From positions 9,672,001-9,736,000 of the forward strand of contig NC_003283.11 of the NCBI RefSeq assembly GCF_000002985.6: 64,000 nucleotides of DNA. The letters run 5' to 3'. The DNA is from Caenorhabditis elegans. Its lineage: Eukaryota > Nematoda > Chromadorea > Rhabditida > Rhabditidae. A program made the position numbers and the translations under genes. This document shows positions 44,697-47,736 of the stretch, piece by piece (position 1 is the stretch's first letter; every line of letters begins with the position of its first letter). The notes under the pieces are model-generated. The model searched no databases. It had not been told where the DNA came from and worked only from the letters and a program-made list of their open reading frames with translations.

Positions 44697-46051
44697 ATGG
44701 TTTACCAACTGACTTGCACCGTTATTTCTTTGTTTCTCAATTCAATTCTCATATGTCTGATCTGGAACAAGTCACCCGCGCAAACAGGAAAATATCGATG
44801 GCTCATGATGTACACTGCATGCTTTGAAATATTTTGGGGAATATACGATTTGCCTGCAGAAATTGTGAGTTTAAATTACATCAACAATTTTCCAATGTTT
44901 TACTAACAAGAAAACCGCAAGTTTTTCAAATGTATTCTCTCCAATTTTTTAACTTTTCAATATTTTCAAAAATTTCAAAAACTTTTAAATGCAATCAATA
45001 ATCAGATTTTTGTAATGTTTATCAAGTGCCACATTAGTTTAATCGGTTTTAAGATAGCTCACTCCGTTGGTAGTGCATTCATTGTCTTCCGTATAAACCA
45101 TCCCGACTCGATTCTAAATTCCGAGCTGTCTTCATGGGTGGTTCTGATATACACTGCAATATTCGGTGCATCGATGGCTCTATTTGCATCTCACTTTGTC
45201 TATCGTTACGGATCAATTGAAATGTAATGATTTTTTAAAATTGTTGTTAACGGATCATTTTCAGCTCGTTTGGCAAAAAGTTCACTTCTGATTGGAAACT
45301 CGGTATTATTCTGATATTCCCTGTAGTGTATGCCATCTGGTGGGCGGCAACTGTACGATTCTGCTTTTGGCCCAATGAAGATTTGAGGGAGTATACCAGG
45401 TAAACTAGAAGTATAAAGTACATCACATGAATGTTTTTGTTTTTAGGGAATTGATTATGACTACAGTCGGACAAGACATTGAGAATATTAGCTATGTTGG
45501 AACACGATTTTATATTGATTCGGTGAATGGAACAAAACATTTCAATATAACCGCTTGGATTGGAGTTTGTCAAATGTTTTTCATGGTGGTCCGTTAAAAT
45601 TATAGGAAGATCAATTAAAAAAAAAAATTTTTAGGGATCTTCCATGGGATGTGTATTTGGATTTGGATTCATGTGCTATTTACGTCTTTCAAATCAGATT
45701 TCAATGGTCTCGATGGCTGTCAACAATCTCCAAAAGCAACTTTTCTATTCACTTGTTCTTCAAACTCTTATTCCATTTGTTCTCATGCACATTCCAATTA
45801 CAATTTATTATCTTTGTCCCATGCTCGACATGGATTTGGATTTTGCTAGTGTCTTCGTAGCATCTACAATAACCTTATACCCGGCTGTCGACCCACTGCC
45901 AAGTTTTTTCGTAATTAAAAGTTATCGAGAAGCAATTCTGAAATTTTTTCGGAAAATCAATGTAGCTTCCAAGAATACAATGGTTGTAACATTTACAATG
46001 AATAGCGTTCGAAATGAATCAAACGTTGGCCACACACCTGCTATATTTTGA
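44697..46051 (+). CDS. Str-type seven-transmembrane chemoreceptor
   Basis: Five exons, join(44697..44864, 45054..45223, 45265..45399, 45447..45588, 45635..46051), 343 residues. Family marks in order: SPAQTGKYRWLMMYTACFEI in helix 1-2; IAHSVGSAFIVF; SFGKKFTSDWKLGIILIFP; NLQKQLFYSLVLQTLIPFVL; then YPAVDPLPSFFVIKSYREAI near the C-terminus. These are the conserved blocks of the nematode Str superfamily (str/srj-like) of presumed odorant receptors in chemosensory neurons. The start is uncertain: the ATG at 44697 leaves a short N-terminus, about 20 residues shorter than the neighbouring copy. The fourth donor (GTCCGT after GTG) is weak. The ligand is unknown. Confidence 0.85.
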
Positions 46052-46401: not shown

Positions 46402-47724
46402 ATGAGTTTTACGTCTATTATTTTCTCCATACCTGATAATTCAACTGATTCACTGAATTCAATGATAGTTCAACTGATTTGTACTATAATTTCTGCGATC
46501 CTAAATTCAACTTTGATAGTTTTAATATGGACCAGATCCCCTCCACAGACAGGAAAATACAGATGGTTAATGACATTTACCGCTGTTTTCGAAATATTTT
46601 GGGGTGCATTTGATCTTCCATCAGAAATCGTGAGTTTTCAAAAGTAACTGTCGTTGCTATATTTTTTAGGATTTAGATTGCTCATTCGGCTGGATGTGCA
46701 TTTATTGCTTTTCGTGTTGATTATCCAGATTCAGTTCTTCAACCATATCATTCTGGATAGATGCTGATGATTTACTGTGCAATTTTTGGAGCATCAATGG
46801 CAATTTTTGCTTCACATTTTTTGTATAGATTCGGATCAATTGAAATGTAAGCTAATATGTCTTCAGATTCTTCTATTCTGAATATTTCAGAAAATTCGGA
46901 AAAAAGTTCACAACCGGTTGGAAATTCAGCCTTTTATTCTTGTTTCCCCTGATGTATGGTATCTGGTGGTGGAAAAATCCCGATATGGATGAATATATGA
47001 GGTCAGTACTATCAATTTGTTTTTTTTTTCTGATTGAAAACTATTAAAGAGACTTGATCATGAGAACAGTTGGGCAACCATTTGAAAGAATTACTTATTT
47101 TGGTGCAAAATTTTATAATTACGACGAGGAAGGAAGAATGTCATTGAACAAAAATGCTTGGATTGGACTTTGTCAAACTTCATTTATGGTGGTGAGAATT
47201 TGTTAAAATTTACAGAACAGTGTTTAGTGTTCTGGATTAAGCACAGGAAAAAGAGAACATTTAGATTTGAATTAGCCAAATTTTCTAAAAACTTTTTGAT
47301 TGTTCAATAATTGCAGAGCAGCTCTTTGGCATGTGTGTTCGGTTTCGGAACATTGTGCTATCGGCGTCTTTCGGATACGTTATCAATTGTTTCAAATGCC
47401 CCAAATAATCTTCAAAAGCAACTGTTCTATGCATTATGCTTCCAAACTCTTATCCCTTTAGTTCTAATGCACTTTCCCATCACCATTTTCTTCCTCGGTC
47501 CAATGCTTACTCTTGATACTGATTTTACCACAACGATTGCATTCCATACAATTATAATTTATCCAGCTGTTGATCCACTTCCAAACTTTGTTATCATCAA
47601 AAACTATCGCGAAGCTGTGTTGAATATGTTCCGTTGGATGTTCTGCGGAAGACAAGCAAATTCTCAAAACCCGCACGGTGTTGTTTCCATTAATAGTTTG
47701 AATATTCATACAACAACTTTGTGA
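46402..47724 (+). pseudogene. Str-type chemoreceptor with one in-frame stop (tandem copy)
   Basis: The same exon layout as its upstream neighbour: 46402-46629, 46677-46846, 46891-47001, 47050-47191, 47317-47724, all splice sites intact and phases matching. Exon 2 contains TAG at 46758-46760, in frame, at the position where the neighbour has Trp (LSSW versus HSG-stop), so a TGG to TAG change is the simplest explanation. Everything after it remains open for over 250 codons, including NLQKQLFYALCFQTLIPLVL and YPAVDPLPNFVIIKNYREAV. The third exon is 24 nt shorter than in the neighbour. It could be a recent pseudogene, a strain-specific null, a sequencing error, or a readthrough gene. Confidence 0.85.
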
Positions 47725-47730
47725 AGAGAA

Positions 47731-47736
47731 AATAAA
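47731..47736 (+). terminator. Poly(A) signal of the second chemoreceptor copy
   Basis: AATAAA just after the stop at 47724, suggesting a very short 3' UTR; a retained signal fits a recently lost gene. Confidence 0.55.

Follow-up and report, generated by a model that had tools for sequence, protein, structure and literature searches.

A Str chemoreceptor gene of Caenorhabditis elegans with an in-frame TAG was probably lost recently and with more than one lesion

Whether a single stop codon can account for the loss of an otherwise well-preserved chemoreceptor gene is the question raised by gene B, a Str-type receptor gene in a 64,000 nt window of the C. elegans genome (RefSeq GCF_000002985.6, contig NC_003283.11, positions 9,672,001 to 9,736,000 of the forward strand; coordinates below are those of the window unless preceded by V). 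A sequence-only reading of the window had held that all exons and splice sites of this gene are intact, that one base change had broken it very recently, and that the stop codon might alternatively be read through. We consider it fairly likely that ordinary purifying selection acted on gene B until recently and that the gene is now non-functional in this genome. The gene was probably lost with at least two lesions. No title or abstract opening about this locus was found in a literature search made without a gene name.

Gene B (46462-47724, plus strand) consists of five exons, and its intron phases, 0, 2, 2 and 0, are the same as those of its neighbor gene A, an intact Str receptor gene of five exons encoding 343 amino acids (44697-46051, plus strand; gene model and Pfam match). 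Exon 1 (46462-46629, phase 0) begins with the ATG at 46462 and was placed by anchors shared with the neighbor and by spliced alignment to the neighbor's protein, as was exon 2 (46677-46846, 170 nt) by comparison with the neighbor and spliced alignment, the latter exon being the stretch in which the stop had originally been noticed. Exon 3 (46891-47001) is 111 nt long, the usual length in the family being 135 nt, and like exon 4 (47050-47191, 142 nt) and exon 5 (47317-47724, with the terminal TGA) was delimited by comparison with the neighbor. Just 3′ of the TGA lies an AATAAA (47731-47736, plus strand), a possible poly(A) signal. The five exons, the position of exon 2 and the presence of the poly(A) signal agree with the sequence-only reading. 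With the TAG entered as X, gene B matches the Pfam profile 7TM_GPCR_Str (PF10326) at an E-value of 3.4e-78 and 263.6 bits (gathering cut-off 22.4), covering profile positions 3-306 of 307; the match of gene A has an E-value of 2.2e-88. The single in-frame TAG stands at codon 84 in a frame of about 332 codons, and the fourth transmembrane helix (TM4) is eight residues shorter, so the frame does not encode seven intact helices. Gene B is a broken member of the Str chemoreceptor family.

The comparison drew on 52 further loci of the same genome, a non-random sample picked by hand from the best matches and modeled by spliced alignment. Some of the fetched stretches overlap, so one gene may be modeled twice, and "Str-like" is used on the basis of matches and models. 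Five relatives stand closest to gene B in a 15-sequence tree: gene A and the loci L036, L037, L038 and L039. The sister of gene B is L039 (V:7.48 Mb), with a support of 100 in the protein tree and 95 in the nucleotide tree, which rules out the neighboring gene A as the closest relative; A and L036 are placed with low support (34, protein tree). Of the 52 loci, 12 have a stop or frameshift in their automated model, and some of these interruptions may be modeling artefacts. Gene B and its closest relatives make six genes, and three of them, B, L037 and L038, appear as broken in the models. For L037 (V:3236000-3238600), the roughly 1 kb of upstream sequence examined yielded no convincing exons 1 and 2; it carries a TAG within the conserved NNLQ-QLFY stretch and is probably another broken member. 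The model of L038 (V:9521000-9523800) has two frameshifts and a TGA. Among the other Str-like loci, L042 (V:15160500-15162800) is another candidate single-stop receptor: its model is open save for a TGA at a codon that reads Trp in L044, its best query. The model of L049 (V:18269500-18272800) is open save for one TAA, at a codon that reads Tyr in L040, its best query.

The TAG of exon 2 (46758-46760, plus strand) aligns with TGG in A, L036 and L038 and with ATT in L039, while L037 does not cover the position. The sequence-only reading had the position of the stop and the Trp codon of the adjacent paralogue right, but L039, the closest paralogue identified, codes for Ile there. As TGG is carried by three of these relatives and ATT by one, the ancestral codon was likely TGG. 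The eight more distant rows of the tree that have a letter at this position carry F, I, V or L; to judge from these rows, the Trp is not conserved across the wider Str family.

A probable second lesion lies in exon 3. In the codon alignment, this exon of gene B lacks 24 nt in frame, corresponding to eight TM4 residues kept by all five closest relatives, and the TAG is accordingly not the only interruption of an otherwise intact set of exons, as had been claimed. Exon 3 is 135 nt long in 28 of the 31 tallied family models, the others having 134 nt (L038, frameshift), 102 nt and 147 nt; the tally took only models in which an exon of 91-149 nt is followed by one of 136, 139, 142, 151 or 154 nt, and L036, where exons 2 and 3 are joined into one, falls outside it. 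More than three gaps in the TM4 stretch occur in none of the 32 intact family rows, namely those of the 52 loci free of stops and frameshifts and scoring 350 or more in alignment with A, on which the table of conserved positions is also based. The deletion junction reads TGG TGG TGG (46964-46972, plus strand), the exact breakpoint being ambiguous inside the repeat, and at the corresponding edges the relatives have TGG TGG on the left in five of five and TGG on the right in four of five. Because TGG is present both at the junction and at these edges, the 24 nt were likely lost by deletion between short repeats. The longest TM4 stretch without any D, E, K, R, N, Q or H spans 16 residues in gene B versus 18-19 in the relatives, and the hydropathy of the best 19-mer is 1.16 versus 1.39-2.14. 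This in-frame deletion is not brought out by comparison with the neighbor alone; single-stop pseudogenes met in genome scans should be checked against several relatives.

The splice sites of gene B were scored with donor and acceptor position weight matrices (PWMs) built from 159 introns, four of them from gene A, of 35 of the 52 loci, taken for having neither stops nor frameshifts and a score of 450 or more. All introns of gene B are GT..AG. The in-frame acceptor of intron 1 (TTTAGGATTTAG/AT, ending at 46676) scores 4.0 bits (9th percentile) versus 9.7 bits (66th percentile) for the acceptor TATATTTTTTAG/GA ending at 46669, which does not bear out the claim that the splice sites are intact. 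The competing AG (TTTTTTAG/G; 46668-46669, plus strand) lies 7 nt upstream of the in-frame one, and its use would shift the frame and lead to a TGA at 46718. Among the introns of intact models, 5 of 155 have a higher-scoring AG in the 20 nt before the acceptor, and in one of these the margin exceeds 5 bits. The tandem acceptor makes the splice pattern of gene B uncertain, and we regard the weak in-frame acceptor with its stronger competitor as a possible third lesion. Intron 3, with a GTCAGT donor and an ATTAAAG acceptor (33rd and 19th percentile), is weakish and within the family range. The intact gene A also has a weak donor, the GTCCGT of intron 4 (45589-45634), at the 18th percentile of the same PWM.

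The time of the loss was addressed by branch tests of omega, the ratio of nonsynonymous to synonymous change, under a codon model. The alignments contained gene B with its five closest relatives or with A, L036 and L039 only, over residues 2-309 in A numbering; masking was applied to columns 1-116 of L037, to stop codons and to codons with frameshifts. With five relatives, the omega of the gene B branch was 0.059, not different from the background of 0.100 (twice the log-likelihood difference, 2ΔlnL, 1.70), and omega = 1 was rejected (2ΔlnL 22.05). With three relatives, the value was 0.065 and omega = 1 was again rejected (2ΔlnL 9.46). The codons after the TAG alone gave 0.061 (2ΔlnL 16.51 versus omega = 1). 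A long-dead neutral pseudogene is ruled out by these values, which are far below 1. When a neutral terminal segment was allowed on the gene B branch (with A, L036 and L039), the best fit was 0, 2ΔlnL rising to 3.05 at 0.15 and to 4.69 at 0.20 substitutions per codon, which puts the upper bound of a neutral period at roughly 0.14-0.17. Of 41 family-conserved positions, gene B equals its neighbor at all 41, and its two departures are both common to A and L039. A recent loss, as the sequence-only reading had proposed, is supported in this codon comparison because the constraint is like that of the relatives, no neutral period is detectable and no conserved position shows a private departure. The further proposal that one base change alone was responsible fares less well, the TM4 deletion and the competing acceptor being further candidate lesions.

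Several points weigh against this account of a constrained gene recently lost by more than one lesion. Gene B may have tolerated the eight-residue deletion before the TAG arose, any effect of it on folding being putative. The acceptor competition is a prediction from a PWM built on models whose aligner already favors consensus sites. For the 82 codons before the TAG taken alone, omega = 1 was not rejected (2ΔlnL 2.37), and synonymous change is saturated at about 3-5 per codon, so that all omega values are rough. The test is also insensitive to recent loss, which it can neither exclude nor date, since the broken L037 shows an omega of 0.098. The broken L038 gave 0.695, but freeing all six tips gained about 9 in 2ΔlnL for six parameters, and this control is not significant jointly.

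On the account that we prefer, a recent loss with at least two lesions, the TAG would have arisen from TGG by a G-to-A change, and the product would end before most of the seven helices. The 24 nt deletion may have come about by slippage or microhomology between the TGG repeats, and the transcript, if made, would be a target of nonsense-mediated decay. With more than one lesion, a young fixed pseudogene would be more likely than a one-base strain variant. Gene B appears to be a real but ordinary young pseudogene, such loss being nothing unusual in a large, fast-changing receptor family.

The alternative that survives best, to which we give a clearly smaller share of belief, is that the deletion and the weak acceptor are tolerated, that the TAG is the sole defect and that functional alleles segregate in wild C. 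elegans. The primary paper on such "flatliner" chemoreceptor alleles of C. elegans is reportedly that of Stewart et al. from 2005. Flatliners are a published phenomenon, described by Thomas and Robertson, 2008 (PMC2576165) as chemoreceptor alleles broken in the strain N2, a point repeated in a paper on copy number variation (PMC2822765). Gene B presumably figures among the genes that the 2008 study lists. That no loss of constraint is visible in gene B would suit a flatliner. However, neither the five closest relatives nor the 32 intact rows show the TM4 deletion, and intron 1 has the stronger out-of-frame acceptor; gene B therefore carries the TAG together with two other apparent defects, the effect of these two being predicted.

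Readthrough of the TAG in sensory neurons, which would make gene B a "pseudo-pseudogene" like Ir75a of Drosophila sechellia, seems very improbable to us, as does the receptor with a shortened TM4 and an altered ligand range that it would yield. The precedent exists in flies (discussed in PMC5615767), and the codons downstream of the TAG are constrained, but a recent loss predicts the same constraint; because any recently lost gene would show it, it lends readthrough no specific support. All four close relatives with sequence at this position lack the TAG, where a conserved stop would be expected of a readthrough gene, and the product would still lack eight TM4 residues. Readthrough candidates number only 5 in C. 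elegans versus 283 in D. melanogaster according to PMC5100048. The readthrough raised by the sequence-only reading is accordingly left with little to recommend it; were it true, stop readthrough would be a feature of nematode serpentine GPCRs as well as of fly chemoreceptors.

That the TAG is a base error of the reference assembly is equally improbable: a difference of one base would fit, but the 24 nt deletion would remain, and the C. elegans reference genome has been heavily resequenced. Least probable of all is a transcript that splices around the TAG in frame, for although 24 of the 109 examined GT..AG pairs that remove it keep a single open frame (such as 46695 to 46791, removing 32 codons, or exon 1 to 46760, removing 28 codons including the TAG), all 24 score below the four modeled introns (best sum 9.4 bits, next 7.5, versus 11.7-18.6), the acceptor at 46760 scores -3.4 (0.6th percentile), and the products, of 212-317 residues in the 15 listed, lose receptor core sequence.

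Gene B offers a clear example of chemoreceptor turnover, in which strong constraint lasted until recently and the gene was then broken, and it can be set beside three known systems. Like Ir75a of Drosophila (Prieto-Godino, 2016, as cited in PMC5615767), it is a chemoreceptor gene interrupted by a premature stop beyond which the frame is conserved, but Ir75a is a fly ionotropic receptor with reported readthrough, and gene B has further apparent lesions. As with the flatliners of PMC2576165, a stop codon has broken a Str gene of the reference strain that is conserved in other respects and whose loss seems recent; flatliners have one defect each, in contrast to the stop, the 24 nt TM4 deletion and the doubtful acceptor of gene B. 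With the multi-defect chemoreceptor pseudogenes of N2 treated in the same paper, it shares more than one apparent defect and the presumption of being a fixed pseudogene, but unlike them it is still well preserved at the residues conserved in the family.
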